NCBI RefSeq assembly: GCF_003269275.1
Contig: NZ_QLTS01000004.1
Span: 1 to 64,000 of the forward strand
Direction: 5' to 3'
DNA length: 64,000 bases
DNA from: Phascolarctobacterium faecium DSM 14760
Lineage (GTDB): Bacteria; Bacillota; Negativicutes; Acidaminococcales; Acidaminococcaceae
The notes under the pieces were generated by a model. That model was not told where the DNA came from, did no database searches, and saw only the letters and a program-made list of their open reading frames with translations. Shown one piece after another: positions 24,689 to 35,738 of the stretch; positions within the stretch are counted from its first letter, which is position 1, and each line of letters opens with the position of its first letter. Made by a program: the position numbers and the translations under genes.

Positions 24689-24919
24689 GCTGACTCTCGC
24701 ATAGAGCAGCACTTGTTTGCCGTATATGCTTCTGACAAATAAAGTACAGGGATACCTGCTTTTGCCAAAGTGCTAAAATAAACTGTTAGAAAAAGATTAT
24801 TGATTAATTAAAGTAATTTTAATTAAAATTTTATCGTTTGCTTGTGTGTTCATTCGAGCCTAGAATAGTGGCTATGTTAGATGCTTCTAACAGCATTATA
24901 TATTTGGAGATGGATCAAG

Positions 24920-27904
24920 ATGAGAACACAAAGCAATTATATGGGAAAAGCAAAGCTGCAGAAAAAAGTTTTAACAACTATTATGACAGGATTTTTATTT
25001 GCCGGTATCAGCAACACAGCGCTGGCAGAGAATGTTTCTGTGCCGGACAGCAAAACCGACGGGCAGACCATTGGCGCAGGCAATACAGCTGCAGGCGATG
25101 GCTGGAGCGTAGAAGTAGGCAGCGACAATAATAAATCAGTCTACAGTGTTGGCGATAAAAACGCCATCAGCCTGCGCGATAATGCTACTATTCATATCAA
25201 AAAAAACGCCGTTGTCACCAACGCAGCCAACAGGAACATCGGCAATTTTGGCACCGGCGCCAATACTATCGAAGTCCGTTCCGGTTCTAAGATCACTGTT
25301 GACGGTACAGTACAAAAGTATGGCCAGCAGAATATGGGCGAAGCGATCAACGTGCATGGCGGCGGCAATACGATCGTTGTCAACGGTTCAGTCATTGCTG
25401 AAAAAAGCGCAGCTATCTGGTTCCAGGACTGGACAGGCACCGGCAACGACAGCAGGAACAGCGTCATCAATAACGGACTGATCCAGCGCACAGACGGCGG
25501 CAACGTCATCGGCACTTCCGGCGGTAACGGCATCGACTTTACCAACAACGGTACCGTCAACGGCAGCCTGTTTTTTGCCAAAGGCGATGATAACCTGACT
25601 TTTATGCCCGGTTCCAATGTTACAGGCAATATTGATGGCGGTGGCGGTAAAAATAAGCTTAACTTAGATGGCAGTAATGATAAAGTAGGGGGAACACTGA
25701 ACGGAGCTATCAAAAATTTTACGAGCCTGACTAAAAAAGGTACCGGCTTGTGGGAGATAACCGGCCCAATGCAGGGCTTTGACACAGTAGACGTACAGCA
25801 GGGCACACTTGGTTTAAGCGGCAACAATGACGGCTTTACAGGCAAGATCACAGTCAGGAAGGACGCCTCTTTAAGCGCCAAAGCTGAAAGCCTGCCGGTC
25901 AATCATCCGGTCAACGGCAATGTGGGGAATATCGACCTGACCAACGGCGGGACGCTGATTTTTGAACAGGATGATAATGGCAGCTATCAGGGGCAGATAA
26001 TCGGCGACGGCTCGGTGATAAAAACAGGCAGCGGCATCGTGGCATTGCGGCCGGATGCCGGCGCCAATACCTACAGCGGTGTCACTACCATTGATGGAGG
26101 CGGGCTGGCGATTTCCTCGCAGGACGCCTTGGGAACTAACAGCGATTTGACCATCAATAACGGCAGCCTGACCGCAGAAGCCGATCTGACTATCGATAAA
26201 CGAATCAATCTTGCCTCGGCAGAAGCTAACAAAACGGCGGTCATTGACACCAACGGACATAACGTGACTGCGGCAGGCGTGCTGAACGGCGTCGTTGACA
26301 GCGGTACTTTTATTAAAATCGGCGCCGGTACGCTGACTGCGGCCAATAACGACAACAGCTTTGCCGGAAACGTCGAAGTTGCCGGTGGTGCGCTGCAGAT
26401 AGACGGCAGCGGTAGCAAAAACTTTACCGGCAAGATCCGCGTACTGCATGAGGCCTTTCTGCAGGGCTCCGGTAAAGTAGCCGGCGACGTAGTCAACGCA
26501 GGCTGGCTGGCGCCGGGCAGCTATAACGATAAGTTCGGCACCTTTACCGTTGGCGGCAACTATACAGGCCAGCCAGGCGGCAAGCTCAGTATCTATTCCG
26601 TTCTGGGCGGCGATGCTTCGCCTACAAGCAAGCTGGTAGTCGAAGGCGATACCGAAGGCTCACCTACCAATATCAGGGTCATCAATCAAAACGGCAGCGG
26701 CGGCTATACCGATAAAGGTATCCTCGTTGTCGACGTCCGGGGCAAGTCTGATCCCAACGCCTTCACGCTGGCCTATGACTACAAGCAGCCCGACGGCACG
26801 GCTGCTGTCGCCGCCGGCAAATACCTCTATCACCTGCAATATAATCAGGAAGACGGCGACTGGTATTTAAAAACACTGCTGAACAAAGACGACACACCCG
26901 TCGTCAACCCTTCCGTACCCCTTTATGAAGCCTATCCGGAGATCATGCTGGGCTATATGAAAGTTAATACCCTGGAAGAACGTGTCGGCAACCGTAAGTG
27001 GCATATCATAGAGGACGGCGAACCGCAGCAGCATTTGCAGTATCAGGAAGGCACCTGGTTCAAGACCGAAGGACTGAGCGGTAAATATAAAGCCGACCGC
27101 AGCACCGCTGCCCCGGACAGCAGCTATGATGTCGATTCGTGGAAAATGCAGATGGGCTACGACAAAATAATCTCCCGTCAGGACGCGGCAACAACAGTTG
27201 TCGGCGGTTTGAACCTGCAAATGGGGCAGGCGCGGGCCAGGATCAAATCAGCAGTCGGTAACGGCAAAATCAAAAGCGACGGCAAAGGCCTGGGCGGTAC
27301 TATGACCTGGTATAAAGACAACGGCGTTTACGTCGATACACAGGCGCAGGCCGTCTGGTTCGACAGCGATATCTCCTCCAGCTCCTCGGCTGCAGCGCAG
27401 CAGATCGAAGGCAACAAAGGCTTTGGTTACGGTCTGAGCGTGGAAACAGGCAAACGGATCGCCATGAAACGCCCGCATTGGTCATGGACACCGCAAATGC
27501 AGCTTGCTTACAGCAATGTTGATTTCGATTCCTTCAGCGACGTCAACGGACTGGCAGTAAAACGCGGCAGCGCCGACAGCCTGCAGGGACGGCTTGGCGC
27601 AGCACTGAACTATGAAAAAAGCTATAAAAACGAAAATGACGAAAATTACCGCAGTGTAAAAGCCTATGGACTGCTCAATGTCTATCATGAATTTCACGAC
27701 GGCACTAACGTTTTGATCGCCGGCGACAACTTTGCCAGCAAAAATGACCCTACCTGGCTGGGACTGGCAGTAGGAGGCACTTATAACTATGGCAGAAATT
27801 CGCAGTACTCTCTGTACGGCGAGCTGGGCATCAGCACCAGCGCCAAAAACTTCGGCGACAGCCATGTACTTCGTGGTGAAGTCGGTTTCAGATATCGTTT
27901 TTAA
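24920..27904 (+). CDS. Autotransporter (type Va) with beta-helix passenger
   Basis: A 994-aa outer-membrane protein. A long basic signal peptide (about residues 1-37, ending near NTALA) is followed by a Gly/Asn/Asp-rich passenger of about 650 residues with repeated short beta segments typical of a right-handed beta-helix (GTGLWEITG, GSGIVALRPDAGANTYSG, GAGTLTAANNDNSFAG are autotransporter-associated repeats). The last 290 residues form the barrel and end in RGEVGFRYRF, the C-terminal aromatic recognised by the BAM machinery. An earlier ATG (24881) adds residues before the signal peptide; GGAG near 24905 favours 24920. Probably a surface adhesin; the ligand is unknown. Confidence 0.9.
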   Translation: MRTQSNYMGKAKLQKKVLTTIMTGFLFAGISNTALAENVSVPDSKTDGQTIGAGNTAAGDGWSVEVGSDNNKSVYSVGDKNAISLRDNATIHIKKNAVVTNAANRNIGNFGTGANTIEVRSGSKITVDGTVQKYGQQNMGEAINVHGGGNTIVVNGSVIAEKSAAIWFQDWTGTGNDSRNSVINNGLIQRTDGGNVIGTSGGNGIDFTNNGTVNGSLFFAKGDDNLTFMPGSNVTGNIDGGGGKNKLNLDGSNDKVGGTLNGAIKNFTSLTKKGTGLWEITGPMQGFDTVDVQQGTLGLSGNNDGFTGKITVRKDASLSAKAESLPVNHPVNGNVGNIDLTNGGTLIFEQDDNGSYQGQIIGDGSVIKTGSGIVALRPDAGANTYSGVTTIDGGGLAISSQDALGTNSDLTINNGSLTAEADLTIDKRINLASAEANKTAVIDTNGHNVTAAGVLNGVVDSGTFIKIGAGTLTAANNDNSFAGNVEVAGGALQIDGSGSKNFTGKIRVLHEAFLQGSGKVAGDVVNAGWLAPGSYNDKFGTFTVGGNYTGQPGGKLSIYSVLGGDASPTSKLVVEGDTEGSPTNIRVINQNGSGGYTDKGILVVDVRGKSDPNAFTLAYDYKQPDGTAAVAAGKYLYHLQYNQEDGDWYLKTLLNKDDTPVVNPSVPLYEAYPEIMLGYMKVNTLEERVGNRKWHIIEDGEPQQHLQYQEGTWFKTEGLSGKYKADRSTAAPDSSYDVDSWKMQMGYDKIISRQDAATTVVGGLNLQMGQARARIKSAVGNGKIKSDGKGLGGTMTWYKDNGVYVDTQAQAVWFDSDISSSSSAAAQQIEGNKGFGYGLSVETGKRIAMKRPHWSWTPQMQLAYSNVDFDSFSDVNGLAVKRGSADSLQGRLGAALNYEKSYKNENDENYRSVKAYGLLNVYHEFHDGTNVLIAGDNFASKNDPTWLGLAVGGTYNYGRNSQYSLYGELGISTSAKNFGDSHVLRGEVGFRYRF

Positions 27905-29132: not shown

Positions 29133-29510
29133 TTATTGACCTGCCGCCAGGGTAAACTTCTTTTCCAGATGCTCGATCAGCTCACGCACCCGGCGCTTGC
29201 TGTTCGCCGGGTCAAACAAATCAGGCTCGTGACAGTCTGCCCGGTGCTCCTGCGTGCGCCGCCGTGCCAGCAGCAGCCTTTTTTGAGCGTCCTGAACAGC
29301 TTCGTCCATATCGTGCAGCCGCGGAAAATAACGCTCACCGGCCAGCTTTTTGACGCAGCCTGTAAACAGGCTCGCTTCTAAAGCTCCATAACGCTCGACC
29401 CACAGCTGCAGCCAAAATTCCTCCTGGGAAGGGCCGGCAAGCGGTGAATGCAGGCCGGCTGCCTTAAACGTCACCAAAGCACGCTGCATAAAAACATAGG
29501 GCCGTTCCAT
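29133..29510 (-). CDS. Uncharacterised protein of the sigma cassette
   Basis: A 125-aa soluble protein that I do not recognise. It is rich in Arg, Glu and Leu, with predicted helices around residues 28-45 (QEEFWLQLWVERYGALEAS) and 65-90 and a basic helical tail (SKRRVRELIEHLEKKF). There is no signal peptide or membrane segment. Its start overlaps the sigma-factor stop by one base (TGATG), so it is translationally coupled and likely acts with the sigma factor, perhaps as a modulator. That role is inference from position only. Confidence 0.6.
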   Translation of the reverse strand: MERPYVFMQRALVTFKAAGLHSPLAGPSQEEFWLQLWVERYGALEASLFTGCVKKLAGERYFPRLHDMDEAVQDAQKRLLLARRRTQEHRADCHEPDLFDPANSKRRVRELIEHLEKKFTLAAGQ

Positions 29511-30112
29511 CAGCGCAGTCTTTCCTGCCTAAGGCCGAAAGCCCGGCGCAGAGTATCCAGCGCTGCCTTTTTAGAGCAGTACACGCTCTGGCTGGTCACA
29601 CCCAGTGTTGCCGCAACCTCGCGCTGGCTTTTGCCCCGCAGGAACACCTCGCTGATCACAAGCCGCTGCATCTGCGGCAGCCGTGCCACCAGCTCCAGCA
29701 CGCAGGCGCTGCGCTCATCCCTGCTGATGCTTTCCTTATAACATTCGCTGGACAGGGCATCTAGGCTCGTGCAGCCCTCCTCGTCCAAAGTTGCCAGCTC
29801 CGCATCGAACAGGTTCTTCTTCTTTTGCACCTGGATATTGAGCTGACGGCGGATCGTATATTTTACGTGTGTGGCAAAAAAGTGGAAATTGTGCTGCTTA
29901 AAGCTTTTGATAGCATCATTGACAGCCATCAAAGCCAGGATCTCCGTATCGTCCTGCTCTAGATAATGTACATAATAACTGTTATATTTAAACGCCCGTA
30001 CCATCGGCGTAAAACCCAGCAAAAGGCTGTTGACCGCCCTGCTGTCGCCGCGCTGTGCCTGCGGCACCAAAACAGCAAAATCAAGCTTCTGTATATTTGA
30101 CTCATGTTCCAT
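29510..30112 (-). CDS. Sigma-70 family RNA polymerase sigma factor
   Basis: A 200-aa alternative sigma factor. Residues about 15-95 resemble region 2 (VPQAQRGDSRAVNSLLLGFTPMVR; EQDDTEILALMAVNDAIKSF; THVKYTIRRQLN), and residues about 140-195 hold a region-4 helix-turn-helix (LPQMQRLVISEVFLRGKSQREVAATLGVTSQSVYCSKKAAL). Region 3 is short, as in ECF-like and SigH/SigI/phage-type factors. It lies 7 bp after a zinc-ribbon gene and is divergent from an amidase/DUF1659/DUF2922/YvrJ operon, which it probably drives from repeated elements in the shared intergenic region. Confidence 0.85.
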   Translation of the reverse strand: MEHESNIQKLDFAVLVPQAQRGDSRAVNSLLLGFTPMVRAFKYNSYYVHYLEQDDTEILALMAVNDAIKSFKQHNFHFFATHVKYTIRRQLNIQVQKKKNLFDAELATLDEEGCTSLDALSSECYKESISRDERSACVLELVARLPQMQRLVISEVFLRGKSQREVAATLGVTSQSVYCSKKAALDTLRRAFGLRQERLR

Positions 30113-30119
30113 CTGTGAT

Positions 30120-30383
30120 CTATCTCCCCTCAGTACCGGCTGCGCCGGTTTTTAAATCTAAAGCAGCCAAAGCAAAATCCTTGGCCGTCAGCCCTTCCAG
30201 ACATTCGCTGCATACTTCGCCGCAGCAGTCCACAGCCAGATACTCGTCACCTTCAAAAATAGGATTGCCGCATAAACTGCAGGTATATACCTCCAGCAGC
30301 TCTGCATTCTCCGGGGCCGCCAGCCAGTCGTTTTCGACAGCGGCCAAACGCTTCTCACTGCTCCTGCAGTCATAATCCATCAT
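30120..30383 (-). CDS. Small zinc-ribbon protein of the sigma cassette
   Basis: An 87-aa acidic protein with four to six cysteines in ribbon spacing: CSLCGNPI (residues about 35-42), then VDCCGEVCSECL (about 52-63). It probably binds one zinc ion. I cannot name the family. It is the first gene of the minus-strand operon, immediately before the sigma factor, so an anti-sigma or partner role is possible but unproven. The ATG is preceded by AAAGG at about 9 bases. Confidence 0.65.
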   Translation of the reverse strand: MMDYDCRSSEKRLAAVENDWLAAPENAELLEVYTCSLCGNPIFEGDEYLAVDCCGEVCSECLEGLTAKDFALAALDLKTGAAGTEGR

Positions 30384-30446: not shown

Positions 30447-30479
30447 ACCGCCGTCACTTTACTGTACTTTCTTAGTAAG
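30447..30479 (-). promoter_or_regulatory. Composite promoter-like element, copy 1
   Basis: On the minus strand CTTACTAAG (30479-30471) is followed by a spacer containing CAGTAAA and then ACGGCGGT (30454-30447). The same parts in the same order occur on the plus strand at 30700-30729 before the divergent operon. It lies 64 bp before the zinc-ribbon start and is a candidate binding site for the sigma factor or a shared regulator. Confidence 0.5.
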
Positions 30480-30579
30480 CACTACTGATACAAACTTGAT
30501 TAACACTTAAACATAAGAGCCTGTAAAACCTTAGAGAGAGGTAGAAACTTATTAAGAAAAAGAAAATACTAAAAGAAAA

Positions 30580-30606
30580 AGACGGTTTTGTTTTACACTT
30601 ACTAAA
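30580..30606 (-). promoter_or_regulatory. Composite promoter-like element, copy 2
   Basis: On the minus strand TTTAGTAAGTGTAA is followed by AACAAAACCGTC. The first block is identical to the plus-strand copy at 30701-30713 over TTAGTAAGTGTAA; the downstream block is a weaker match. It would start a transcript with a leader of about 190 nt before the zinc-ribbon gene. Confidence 0.45.
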
Positions 30607-30622
30607 TACATAGCCAAAAATC

Positions 30623-30683
30623 AAAAAATCAGGTTCGCGCGAAAAAAATAATTTTTTTTTTTCGGCAGCAAGCCTGATTTTTT
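30623..30683. terminator. Long imperfect hairpin between divergent operons
   Basis: AAAAAATCAGG (30623-30633) pairs with CCTGATTTTTT (30673-30683). Inside it CGAAAAAAA pairs with TTTTTTTCG. Both strands show a T-run after the stem, so it may be a bidirectional terminator or insulator placed between two oppositely directed promoter elements. Confidence 0.6.
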
Positions 30684-30699
30684 CTAAAAAAGATATGTA

Positions 30700-30729
30700 C
30701 TTAGTAAGTGTAAGCAGTAAAACGGCGGT
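30700..30729 (+). promoter_or_regulatory. Composite promoter-like element, copy 3
   Basis: CTTAGTAAG (30700-30708), then GTAAGCAGTAAA, then ACGGCGGT (30722-30729). It is the mirror image of copy 1 and shares TTAGTAAGTGTAA with copy 2. It lies 47 bp before the amidase start. No sigma-A type -10 is seen nearby, which fits use of an alternative sigma factor. Confidence 0.5.
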
Positions 30730-30775: not shown

Positions 30776-31336
30776 ATGCTGGCAGAACAGCCGCAGATTA
30801 TCTCACTTACGCAGCTTGCCGCTGTGGCAGGCTGCAGCCGCGATCATATCACGCAGCTCTACCTGCACTGGACGGCAGGTCGTTACGGGCAGATCTATGA
30901 CGACTACCACATCAATATCGACGCCGACGGCACAGTCTACCGCACCAGCAGCAGCCTGTCGCAGTACAAAAGCCACACTTGGCGCCGCAACAGCGGCAGT
31001 ATCGCCGTCGCCCTGTGCTGCGGGCTGGGGGCGCAGGCCAACCACGGCTATGATGCCGACCTGGGGCAGTTTGCCCCTACGGCAGTGCAGACCGATAAAA
31101 TGGCGCAGACAGTGGCGCTGCTCGTAACGGCGCTTGGCCTGCAGCTTACTATCGATACCGTAATGACCCACTGTGAAGCAGCGCTGCTGGATGGCTACGG
31201 CCCTTACAGTGGCGATGCCGAAACACGCTGGGACCTGTGGTATATGCGCGATTCACCCGGCGACGGACAGATGAAGCCGGGTGGGGACATACTGCGCGGC
31301 AAAGCTCGCTGGTATTTAGAACACAGTAAAATTTAA
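30776..31336 (+). CDS. N-acetylmuramoyl-L-alanine amidase domain protein
   Basis: A 186-aa protein with an Amidase_2 (PGRP-type, zinc) fold. Visible landmarks are the first zinc His in YLHWTAGRYGQIYDDYH, the strand IDADGTVYRT, the SHTWRRNSGSIAVALCCG block with a second His, and THCEAALLDGYGPYSGD followed by ETRWDLW. There is no signal peptide, so it needs a holin-like exit route or acts after lysis, as phage endolysins do. GGGGGAA lies before the ATG at 30776; a longer frame opens at 30695 but covers the promoter element. First gene of the plus-strand operon. Confidence 0.85.
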   Translation: MLAEQPQIISLTQLAAVAGCSRDHITQLYLHWTAGRYGQIYDDYHINIDADGTVYRTSSSLSQYKSHTWRRNSGSIAVALCCGLGAQANHGYDADLGQFAPTAVQTDKMAQTVALLVTALGLQLTIDTVMTHCEAALLDGYGPYSGDAETRWDLWYMRDSPGDGQMKPGGDILRGKARWYLEHSKI

Positions 31337-31357: not shown

Positions 31358-31585
31358 ATGAGCACGACTAAAACAGCAACATCCTACAAACTATCTCTGG
31401 GCGTCGAAAACGGCGTCAATGCGCTGGGGGCAGCGCAGGTCAAATCCGTATCTGTCGGCAGCGTCAAGCTGGACGCCGCCGACGACAAATGCCTTGCTGT
31501 GGCCAATGCCATGAACGAGCTGATGAGCCACGAAGTGGTCAACGTCTACGTTACGGAAAAGGCCGAGCTGGCTCAGGCGGAATGA
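31358..31585 (+). CDS. DUF1659 domain protein
   Basis: A 75-aa protein matching the DUF1659 pattern: a polar N terminus, then a central helix in which LAVANAMNELMSHEVVNVYVTEKAEL resembles the family's conserved end. No signal peptide or membrane helix. Function unknown. It lies 21 bp after the amidase gene with AAAAGGAG upstream. In many Firmicutes, as I recall, DUF1659, DUF2922 and YvrJ genes travel together. Confidence 0.75.
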   Translation: MSTTKTATSYKLSLGVENGVNALGAAQVKSVSVGSVKLDAADDKCLAVANAMNELMSHEVVNVYVTEKAELAQAE

Positions 31586-31769: not shown

Positions 31770-31982
31770 ATGGAAAAAACCTTAGAACTCATTTTCACCA
31801 AAAGCGACGGAGCTAAAAAAAACTTAAGCATCGCCGACCCTCGCGAAGGACTCACCCTTGCCGACGCCAAAACGGCAGCCGACAAGATCATAGCCGCCAA
31901 CGTACTGACCAGCGGCGGCCTGGAACTGACAGAATTTACTGAAGCCCGCATCAAAACAGTTACTATTGATGTGCTTGCTTAG
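31770..31982 (+). CDS. DUF2922 domain protein
   Basis: A 70-aa protein matching DUF2922: KTLELIFTKSDGAKKNLSIADPREGLT, then a helix LADAKTAADKIIAANVLTS and a C-terminal strand TEARIKTVTIDVLA. No export signal. Function unknown. Its stop codon TAG shares its last base with the GTG start of the next gene (TAGTG), so the two are tightly coupled. Confidence 0.78.
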   Translation: MEKTLELIFTKSDGAKKNLSIADPREGLTLADAKTAADKIIAANVLTSGGLELTEFTEARIKTVTIDVLA

Positions 31983-32143
31983 TGGAAGCCCAGAAATTAT
32001 TTACAGCAATAGGTAATTTTGGCTTCCCGATAGTATTGAGCTGGTACCTGCTGCTGCGTATGGAGCAGCGGCTGGACAAGCTGGGCGACTGCCTGCACGA
32101 GCTGAGCAGCGCCATTGTCGAGGAACAGAAAAAAACTGAATAA
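31982..32143 (+). CDS. YvrJ family, holin-like small membrane protein
   Basis: A 53-aa protein starting at GTG 31982. An N-terminal membrane helix (AIGNFGFPIVLSWYLLLRME, residues about 10-28) is followed by a charged amphipathic helix (QRLDKLGDCLHELSSAIVEEQKKTE). This matches the YvrJ family, whose layout resembles BhlA/UviB-type phage and bacteriocin holins. Coupled by a 1-bp overlap to DUF2922. A role in letting the amidase or another cargo cross the inner membrane is inference. Confidence 0.75.
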   Translation: MEAQKLFTAIGNFGFPIVLSWYLLLRMEQRLDKLGDCLHELSSAIVEEQKKTE

Positions 32144-32914: not shown

Positions 32915-33256
32915 ATGCATATCGAAAGCTGGGAGGAAGCGATACACAAAGATAACAGGGCAGGATTAGGAGGGCTGACAGTCAAGTGTCCGATCTGCGG
33001 CCGTGAATTTGGCTGCAATAAAACATATCATGTCTATACAGCTTTGGTAGGAAGAAAGCGGCAATATTACTGCAGCTATTCCTGTTATAAACAAAGGTCT
33101 AATCCAAAGGAAAAAGATGAATGGGAGGAAATGTATCATGGAAAAGATGGATTTAAGCAAAAAGGTATTGGCGTCTTTGCTGACAATGTCGTGTGTATAT
33201 CTGGGGGGAACATCCGTGCTCCCAACAGCTGGCGCGGCAGAGAATGCGGCGGATAA
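32915..33256 (+). CDS. Small Cys-rich (zinc-binding-like) protein overlapping autotransporter 2
   Basis: An ORF of 113 aa from ATG 32915 (or 116 aa from ATG 32906). Residues about 24-60 contain CPICGREFGCN and YYCSYSCYK, a CxxC...CxxxC arrangement that may bind zinc and resembles phage-type zinc fingers for recognising basic DNA-binding partners. The last 40 residues overlap the autotransporter gene in another frame and look like out-of-frame sequence, so the functional part is probably the first 70-75 residues. Function unknown. The autotransporter ribosome-binding site lies inside this ORF. Confidence 0.55.
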   Translation: MHIESWEEAIHKDNRAGLGGLTVKCPICGREFGCNKTYHVYTALVGRKRQYYCSYSCYKQRSNPKEKDEWEEMYHGKDGFKQKGIGVFADNVVCISGGNIRAPNSWRGRECGG

Positions 33257-35738
33257 CAACGTTGGGCAGCTGATCACTAATGGTGGTAGCCTGACTGGCG
33301 GTGATGTTTTTAATTTCACGTCTGAGAGCACTGCAAATTATACAGCATTGCGATTTTATGGAGAGAATCTTGATATTCCTATGACTGGCAGCGGCGTTTA
33401 TACGATCAACGGTAATGGTGGGATAATCAGTCAGGCTTATGGCATGGTTTTCGGCAGCAGTGAAGATGTTGAGACCGGAGGCTGGGGTGGACCATCCAAA
33501 AGTTTTGTAAGAGCAACGGGTATTATAAACGGTGACTGGCAGCTGAATCTCAAGGCTGATGCAGGAGAATCCAGAGGTATTATTATTGATGGAGGAACTA
33601 AATATATAAATCCCGGGTCTTTTGATTCTATTAACGATGCTAGTGATATAATTTTCAATGGCAAGGTGAATATTGATATTGAAGGTCAGGGTATAAATTC
33701 TATTTACTTAAATGGCGGAGCTAAAGGCACTTTTAAGGACGATGTGAATATAAAAGGTACTAGTAATGGCAACAATGCGCTGTATGGTATCTATCTTAAT
33801 AACTATACAGATAACATGGGAAGTGTTTCTTTTGAGAAAGATTTGAAGTTGCAACTCTATCATAACAGTACTCAACAGGGCAGTAATCTTGGTTACGGCA
33901 TCAATGTGTTCGGCAAACATAATACGCTTACAGTCCAAGGCAAAACTACCATTGATATTGGTTCAGCAGGACAAATAAGTTATGCCATTCAGGTAAACGG
34001 CCAGAATTCGTCTGCTATCTTTAGTGATACTGAGATTACAATGACGGGAGGTTCTGTACAGCGCGGGGTAAATGCTGCTTATGGCAGTATTGATTTTACA
34101 GGCGATACCAAGATTACCTTGAACAATCATTCTGCGAGTAGTGGAACAATGAAAGCTACGGCAGTAAATGCACAGGACAGCGGTGTCGTAAATATTAATA
34201 GTGCTAAAGATAAAACAGTACAGGTCAAGGGACATTTTGTTTCAACATCTAAGGGTGTTATTAATGCTGTTTTTAATAATGCGAATTCCTGGTGGGAAGG
34301 CGATGCCCAGCTGAATGCCAGTGGCAATGCGATCAATTTAGAGTTGGCTAATGGTGCAGTTTGGTATCCCGGCTGCGATAGTACTATTTATAACAAAGGT
34401 ATGAATTTGAATCTGCATGACGGTGGCATTGTTGATATGACGAAGACTGCTGATCAATATGCTGATTTAAATATTGGCAGTGTTAATGGTACTGGTGGTT
34501 TGTTCAGGTTGGAAACAGATGTTGTGAATATGCAAAGTGACAAGGTAAATATTCTTGCCAGTACAGATGCAGGCACGCACAGCATCGATATTATTGATGT
34601 TAACGAAGTGACGATGGATCAGATTGCTGCTGATGCAGGTAAAGGGCTTTTGCTGGCAACGGCTCCGGATGCGATTAAATTTACGGCTAACGAACGTGAA
34701 CAATCGTTATTTTATGTGAAGTATAACTTAAAAGACGAAGTGCTTGGCACCGGGATGACAGAATGGAAACTGGATGGTTTTGAAATAGTGCCAGTAGAAC
34801 CGGATAATCCGGATAACCCTGACATTAAACCTACTACCAGCGTGGATACCATACTTTCTGCTAATGCGCTGAACTACCACACCTGGCGTACGGAAAATGA
34901 CAAGCTGCTCCAACGCATGGGCGAGCTGAGACATAATGGCGAGGAAGAACAGGGAGCCTGGTTTCGCGTGAAGGGCAGCAAGATCAGCCGTGATAGTAAG
35001 TTTGGTTTTGAGAACAAATACACTGCTTATGAGCTGGGCTACGATCAGGTAACTAAACGTACTGCCGACAAAACACGTTATCAGGGCGTTGGTTTGAGCT
35101 ATACTGACGGCAGCAGCATCTACAGCCGTGGCAGCGGTGACAACAGCAGCAAGTCGATTGGTTTCTACAGCACTGATATCGGTAGCAAGGGTCATTATCT
35201 GGATTTAGTATTTAAAATCAGCAATATGGATAATGATTTTACAGTTTATGATACCAACCGCAACAAGATCACTGGTGATTTTAATAATACCGGCGTATCG
35301 CTGAGTGCCGAATACGGACGTAAAAATAATTTGCAAAATGGCTGGTATATCGAGCCGCAGGTACAGTTTACATTAGGTTATCTGGGTGGGGATAACTACG
35401 TTGCCAGTAATGGTATCGAAGTAGAACAAAGCGGTATTAAAAGTGCTGTCGGCCGTATCGGGTTTAACATTGGTAAAGAAGTCGGCGAAAAAGGCATAGT
35501 TTACGTCAAGGCCAACCTGCTGCACGAATTTGGCGGTGGTTACGATGTAACTATGACTGACAGTACAGGCCGGGTGAAAGTCAGCGACAGCTTTGACGAT
35601 ACCTGGTTTGAATACGGCATCGGTGCGGCGTTAACGACCGGCAGTAACAGTCATATTTATTTTGATGTAGAACGCAGTGCTGGCAGCGACTTTACTAAAG
35701 ACTGGCAATGGAATGTCGGAGTAAGGTGGAATTTCTAA
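33138..35738 (+). CDS. Autotransporter 2 with C-terminal beta-barrel
   Basis: An 866-aa outer-membrane protein. A signal peptide (MEKMDLSKKVLASLLTMSCV, cleavage near residues 30-37, GAAEN) precedes an Asn/Gly/Ser-rich passenger of about 550 residues with repeated beta segments. After a Pro/Asp linker (VEPDNPDNPDIKP) the autotransporter barrel runs from about residue 590 and ends WNVGVRWNF, with the terminal Phe needed for BAM recognition. GGGAGGA 9 bases before ATG 33138 fixes the start. It lies within a likely operon with a regulator upstream and a lipoprotein 16 bp downstream. Confidence 0.9.
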   Translation: MEKMDLSKKVLASLLTMSCVYLGGTSVLPTAGAAENAADNNVGQLITNGGSLTGGDVFNFTSESTANYTALRFYGENLDIPMTGSGVYTINGNGGIISQAYGMVFGSSEDVETGGWGGPSKSFVRATGIINGDWQLNLKADAGESRGIIIDGGTKYINPGSFDSINDASDIIFNGKVNIDIEGQGINSIYLNGGAKGTFKDDVNIKGTSNGNNALYGIYLNNYTDNMGSVSFEKDLKLQLYHNSTQQGSNLGYGINVFGKHNTLTVQGKTTIDIGSAGQISYAIQVNGQNSSAIFSDTEITMTGGSVQRGVNAAYGSIDFTGDTKITLNNHSASSGTMKATAVNAQDSGVVNINSAKDKTVQVKGHFVSTSKGVINAVFNNANSWWEGDAQLNASGNAINLELANGAVWYPGCDSTIYNKGMNLNLHDGGIVDMTKTADQYADLNIGSVNGTGGLFRLETDVVNMQSDKVNILASTDAGTHSIDIIDVNEVTMDQIAADAGKGLLLATAPDAIKFTANEREQSLFYVKYNLKDEVLGTGMTEWKLDGFEIVPVEPDNPDNPDIKPTTSVDTILSANALNYHTWRTENDKLLQRMGELRHNGEEEQGAWFRVKGSKISRDSKFGFENKYTAYELGYDQVTKRTADKTRYQGVGLSYTDGSSIYSRGSGDNSSKSIGFYSTDIGSKGHYLDLVFKISNMDNDFTVYDTNRNKITGDFNNTGVSLSAEYGRKNNLQNGWYIEPQVQFTLGYLGGDNYVASNGIEVEQSGIKSAVGRIGFNIGKEVGEKGIVYVKANLLHEFGGGYDVTMTDSTGRVKVSDSFDDTWFEYGIGAALTTGSNSHIYFDVERSAGSDFTKDWQWNVGVRWNF

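Follow-up and report, generated by a model that had tools for sequence, protein, structure and literature searches.

The cassette and its intergenic region

We describe here a pair of promoter-like elements in a small sigma factor/amidase cassette of Phascolarctobacterium faecium DSM 14760, within a window of 64,000 nucleotides (contig NZ_QLTS01000004.1). The plus strand encodes an endolysin-like Amidase_2 protein (30776–31336; Pfam 6.3e-6, PHROG endolysin 4.9e-33), followed by a DUF1659 protein (31358–31585; Pfam 1.8e-15), a DUF2922 protein (31770–31982; Pfam 4.2e-20), and a small YvrJ-family protein (31982–32143; Pfam 1.4e-13) that also has a weak PHROG match to phage holins (0.0028). Divergently, on the minus strand, are a small zinc-ribbon-like protein (30120–30383), which among the loci examined is present only here and in the paralogous cassette on contig C8 of the same genome, a sigma factor (29510–30112; sigma70-ECF 1.3e-11, and Sigma70_r4), and a 125-residue open reading frame with no family match (29133–29510). 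The sigma factor contains both the sigma2 and sigma4 domains that define the sigma-70 family, and its structure model (mean pLDDT 88.5, pTM 0.57) has two helical domains (residues 2–111 and 131–191), with PDB fold matches that are mostly sigma factors. Two large autotransporter-like reading frames (24881–27904 and 33117–35738) lie on either side of the cassette, and by eye similar coding appears to adjoin the copies on contigs C3 and C14. Both of those contigs begin, at position 1, with GTAACCTCTGGTTACAAA, just 5’ of their DUF1659-DUF2922-YvrJ copies, where repeated cassettes probably interrupt the assembly; a search with the palindrome GTAACCTCTGGTTAC from the two contig starts found no further places.

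Three related sites lie between the amidase and zinc-ribbon genes, as a sequence-only reading of this DNA had reported, although they are not of one kind. The plus copy (30673–30713, plus strand), the promoter-like element of the amidase operon, consists of an upstream, -35-like box CCTGATTTTTT (30673–30683), a free spacer, and a downstream, -10-like box TATGTACTTAGTAAGTGTAA (30694–30713). The third copy (30593–30633, minus strand) is a mirror element facing the zinc-ribbon/sigma operon, with its upstream box at 30633–30623 and its downstream box at 30612–30593. Plus copy and third copy share the 41-base pattern CCTGATTTTTT-N10-TATGTAyTTAGTAAGTGTAA, which has two exact matches in the window and none in 100 shuffles. 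The sequence TTAGTAAGTGTAA, at 30605–30593 in the third copy, occurs at just two places in the whole 2.3 Mb genome, the plus and third copies, and a looser 20-base search adds one place with three mismatches. A leader motif GCAGTAAAACGGCGGT (30714–30729, plus strand) follows the plus copy, and a T/C-rich stretch (30548–30586, minus strand) lies directly 3’ of the mirror copy.

The first copy (30447–30479, minus strand) is a weaker relative of the plus copy that lacks the upstream box. It contains CTTACTAAG (30479–30471, one mismatch), CAGTAAA (30464–30458), and ACGGCGGT (30454–30447), corresponding on the plus strand to CTTAGTAAG (30700–30708), CAGTAAA (30715–30721), and ACGGCGGT (30722–30729), the last element sitting three bases further on in the first copy. 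CTTAsTAAG, CAGTAAA, and ACGGCGGT are thus common to both; CTTASTAAG-N6-CAGTAAA with up to two mismatches has two matches in the window versus 0.05 expected from shuffles, with the pattern chosen post hoc from data already seen. Gapped local alignment relates the first copy weakly to the plus copy (score 23, shuffle p = 0.007), and its score against the third copy (18) is under the top shuffle scores. We therefore rejected the first copy as a full promoter, because it has no upstream box and no above-shuffle alignment to the third copy. The sequence-only reading had placed the mirror of the plus copy at 30479–30447, but the true mirror partner is the third copy, in which the upstream box recurs with unchanged spacing.

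Conservation of a two-box element with the cassette

Searches for amidases took in 59 genomes of the family, of which 49 had a match, and gave 80 named loci, many of them in Phascolarctobacterium, Succiniclasticum, Acidaminococcus, and uncultured Acidaminococcaceae. The same cassette is present at many loci, often with the sigma gene divergent. An expectation-maximisation search of 47 non-redundant amidase upstream regions (20 identifiers of twice-fetched contigs having been removed by a hand list, and an 80% rule on near-identical regions having reduced 61 to 47) yields an 18-base motif with the consensus GATTATATAAGTGAAAGG and 15.3 bits, and a log-likelihood of 241 versus 87–100 in six shuffled sets. 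The posterior is at least 0.9 in 43 of the 47 regions and the score at least 6.5 in 39; the element is kept ahead of the cassette amidases of Acidaminococcaceae. The motif was not found within 206 nt at three of the 47 (L070, L101, and L164) and is doubtful at L122; L101 has a full-scoring site further upstream, and the amidase start of L070 is probably misplaced.

Presence of the element follows the cassette. Of 57 amidases that have a cassette partner in their locus, 48 score at least 6.5, versus 10 of the 47 that have none (shuffles, 1.1%), and nine of those 10 are at Phascolarctobacterium-type or Acidaminococcus-type loci. In this genome it is present at the cassette amidases of contigs C4 (7.9), C8 (11.7), and C2 (8.3) and absent from the cassette-free amidases of C9 (2.8) and C1 (2.4); the window site, TACTTAGTAAGTGTAAGC, scores 7.9 and is itself a member of the training set. 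At a score of 9, a scan over 1.93 Mb of strand sequence gives 67 matches, of which 62 are assigned to cassette genes (52 to amidases, five to DUF1659 genes, and five to sigma genes) and five to none, with the qualification that some loci overlap and the amidase sites served for training. Two of the five sigma-gene matches are one place within a sigma coding region and another two are one place in genome G041. At this score the element thus lies upstream of the putative regulon genes and is rare elsewhere, as is characteristic of alternative-sigma promoters.

Several features near the element are also recurrent. CGG is present at a similar offset after it in 10 of the 29 cassettes with room (shuffle mean 3.25, largest 9 in 500). 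A GnAATTACGGAACCC-like leader motif is seen at a near-constant offset after the amidase element in the window (ACGGCGGTCCC) and in Succiniclasticum-type loci, among them L096, L109, and L131. We also note the element upstream of DUF1659 at L048 (1781–1798), L050 (852–869), and L028 (1880–1897), and two promoters in one cassette are therefore possible. At L170 (2900–3400, contig C9 of this genome), a further amidase without the element follows a small open reading frame judged by eye to resemble a phage holin.

An inverted second copy lies 70–122 bases away in 16 non-redundant loci, hand-picked as one per cluster and still including close relatives (L062/L184/L087/L090, L076/L078, and L091/L068), such that the independent cases number about 10; a pair at L180 from the same search was excluded as an unrelated repeat. 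Identity between left and right copies is 0.87 across the two boxes but 0.30 across the spacer. The upstream box varies strongly between loci (CCTGATTTTTT in the window, GGTTAAAAA in C8, GGTAAATTTT in L060, and GGGTAAATAAA in L043), yet is near-identical within each pair. Two boxes at fixed spacing around an unconserved spacer are a further property of alternative-sigma promoters, and the pair pattern is as expected for two promoters that serve one specific sigma factor, although sequence alone does not fix the precise -35 and -10 hexamers.

Covariation with the sigma factor and competing explanations

Both boxes covary with the adjacent sigma protein. We compared 36 cassettes, reduced to 30 at 90% sigma identity, with the nearest sigma gene taken as cognate and excluding cassettes with no sigma gene within 2.6 kb or a score below 6.5. 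In partial Mantel tests given amidase distance, the upstream box correlates with region 4 (r = 0.39, p = 0.0002) and region 2 (r = 0.29, p = 0.0002), and the downstream box with region 2 (r = 0.25, p = 0.0002) but not region 4 (r = 0.04, p = 0.28). With the other region also controlled, the upstream box retains 0.31 with region 4 (p = 0.0007) and 0.16 with region 2, and the downstream box 0.26 with region 2 (p = 0.0003) and -0.07 with region 4. However, the free spacer likewise gives 0.28 with region 2 (p = 0.0003) and -0.02 with region 4 and, as with the correlation of the upstream box and region 2, this indicates that shared descent is not wholly removed. Among the 16 Succiniclasticum-type cassettes the downstream box correlates with region 2 (0.45, p = 0.0007) and the upstream box marginally with region 4 (0.17, p = 0.06); the other 14 have no significant partial correlation. 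The proposal that the encoded sigma factor recognises the element as its promoter remains the best reading, in that the element is conserved, has two boxes, and covaries with the sigma regions, and it is tempered by the part of that covariation that descent may explain.

There are several other explanations to consider. The element could be a promoter served by some other sigma factor, either the housekeeping one or a further alternative one, with the cassette association purely positional; the sigma gene is missing near some element-bearing amidases, and the TTATATAAG-like box shares the A+T richness of many promoters. We regard this as unlikely, because cassette-free amidases mostly lack the element, and because the upstream box, variable between loci and matched within pairs, varies together with region 4 of the neighbouring sigma factor. 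A sigma-A consensus scan also gives just two weak plus-strand matches (9 of 12 positions, 0.6 expected) and none on the minus strand, in agreement with the earlier remark that no sigma-A promoter is evident in the region. A palindromic operator for a dimeric repressor or another cassette protein is suggested by CTTAGTAAG, an odd palindrome found in the first copy and the plus copy, but the palindrome is lost in relatives (GATTATATAAG, CATTATTATAG, and GTTTATATGG) whereas the asymmetric two-box layout with a directional AGTGnAAGG is kept, and we consider an operator very improbable. Slighter still is the chance that the inverted copies around an A/T-rich centre, seen at all 16 pair loci, are a DNA structure such as an invertible segment, a transposon end, or a hairpin or terminator. 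Unlike recombination arms or stems, the copies are alike only in the two boxes (0.87 versus 0.30 between them), which disfavours the hairpin, transposon-end, and invertible-repeat models, and no terminator-like site was found in the window intergenic region. The palindromic operator and the invertible repeat were both rejected on this box-versus-spacer identity.

We therefore return to promoters of the cassette’s own sigma factor, and think it rather probable that the plus and third copies are divergent promoters of this kind, driving the amidase and zinc-ribbon/sigma operons with feedback at this locus, and that the first copy is not a full promoter. We infer the reading sigma factor, the start sites, the direction of control, and the feedback. 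RNA polymerase carrying the cassette sigma factor would read the plus and third copies as a divergent pair, with region 4 contacting the upstream box and region 2 contacting the TTAGTAAGTG box. The plus promoter would drive amidase-DUF1659-DUF2922-YvrJ, and the mirror promoter, which lies some 210 bases ahead of the start codon of the zinc-ribbon gene, would drive the zinc-ribbon/sigma operon and so give positive feedback in the window; the first copy would sit within the leader of that operon.

The sequence-only reading proposed autoregulation, for which support is local; feedback is not a general property of these cassettes. It is plausible in the window, in C8 (L040), and in L117, where a mirror copy faces the sigma operon, but these are only three of 25 divergent sigma loci when the whole divergent interval is considered. 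At none of 40 loci is the locus’s own amidase element found (p ≤ 0.01) in the 400 nt before the sigma start; in the window and at C8, other operon genes lie between the element and that start. General autoregulation was looked for in these two ways and not found. Feedback is also plausible in G041, where an element lies about 250 nt upstream of the sigma reading frame in a fetched stretch with no amidase.

Related systems and the pyrimidine-rich tract

The sigma2-sigma4 layout and the TIGR02937 match, just above the cut-off (44.4 versus 42.9), resemble those of ECF (group IV) sigma factors, although no anti-sigma factor was identified in the cassette and the upstream box is presumably not of the ECF GGAAC type. 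UviA is a group V sigma factor of Clostridium, and factors of this group are found next to holin-like genes; the window cassette, with a small, divergent sigma factor and a holin-like neighbour, is similar by description. We take the window boxes to differ from those of TcdR and BotR and, unlike the Clostridium systems, the window cassette has no identified toxin or bacteriocin gene. TcdR and BotR are placed in group V in PMC8103513, where it is also described that SigO-RsoA (YvrI-YvrHa) of B. subtilis transcribes oxdC-yvrL, yvrJ, and its own operon; in PMC10028694 this is termed a divergent regulon. SigO-RsoA shares with the window cassette a sigma factor, a YvrJ-family protein, and divergent promoter-like elements, and differs in having oxdC-yvrL where amidase, DUF1659, and DUF2922 accompany YvrJ here. 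SigO-RsoA is also split into two subunits with sigma2 and sigma4 on separate proteins, whereas here both domains are predicted in a single 200-residue protein. By analogy the window system may work like SigO-RsoA, but it is not a member of that class as defined.

The plus and third copies look like a back-to-back promoter pair of a small sigma/amidase cassette found across gut Acidaminococcaceae. This would provide a testable promoter code for a widespread and little-studied cassette; searches of the open-licence literature found nothing on DUF1659/DUF2922/YvrJ cassettes, either in general or in Phascolarctobacterium. Where one genome holds paralogous pairs that differ in their boxes, these would serve as natural orthogonal sets of sigma factor and promoter.

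In many relatives, those with Phascolarctobacterium-type loci, the mirror copy faces not the sigma gene but a T/C tract with a pyrimidine fraction of 0.80–0.91 over 45 nt. The T/C-rich stretch of the window occupies the corresponding position and is weaker (0.67); C2 has 0.93, and C8, at 0.53, has no tract. Beyond the tract, a perfect hairpin of at least six pairs with CCTT within three bases after it is found at 11 of the 16 pair loci, four of the 11 being close relatives, versus 0.26 expected from shuffles. Hairpin sequences vary yet stay paired, perfect pairing being a search criterion as well. The feature is absent from the window, C8, C2, L071, and L117, Rfam gave no hits for the element regions in the window or in the 10 loci searched, and we found no literature on such an RNA in this group. 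The tract, hairpin, and (A)CCTT together suggest a candidate small RNA, which we do not claim for the window itself, and these features could equally have a Rho-loading or leader role.

More tentatively, and with rather less than even confidence, we propose that each genome has diversifying, insulated sigma/promoter pairs and that the Phascolarctobacterium amidase promoter is twinned with an opposing small-RNA promoter. If so, Acidaminococcaceae genomes would each hold several fast-diversifying, mutually insulated pairs, with every pair in control of a phage-lysis-like cassette of endolysin, YvrJ holin-like protein, DUF1659, and DUF2922. The divergent transcript, rich in pyrimidines, would add a new candidate to the small RNAs of common gut bacteria. 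It would comprise a pyrimidine tract of 40–65 nt, a hairpin, and a tail, (A)CCUU, that resembles an anti-Shine-Dalgarno sequence, and could restrain translation of the lysis genes. Several Phascolarctobacterium amidases (L060, L062, L087, and L090) carry the pair in fetched loci that lack a sigma gene. At L174 (5449–5638, contig C2 of this genome), where the fetched stretch also has no sigma gene, the mirror copy reads through the tract toward another gene on the same strand.
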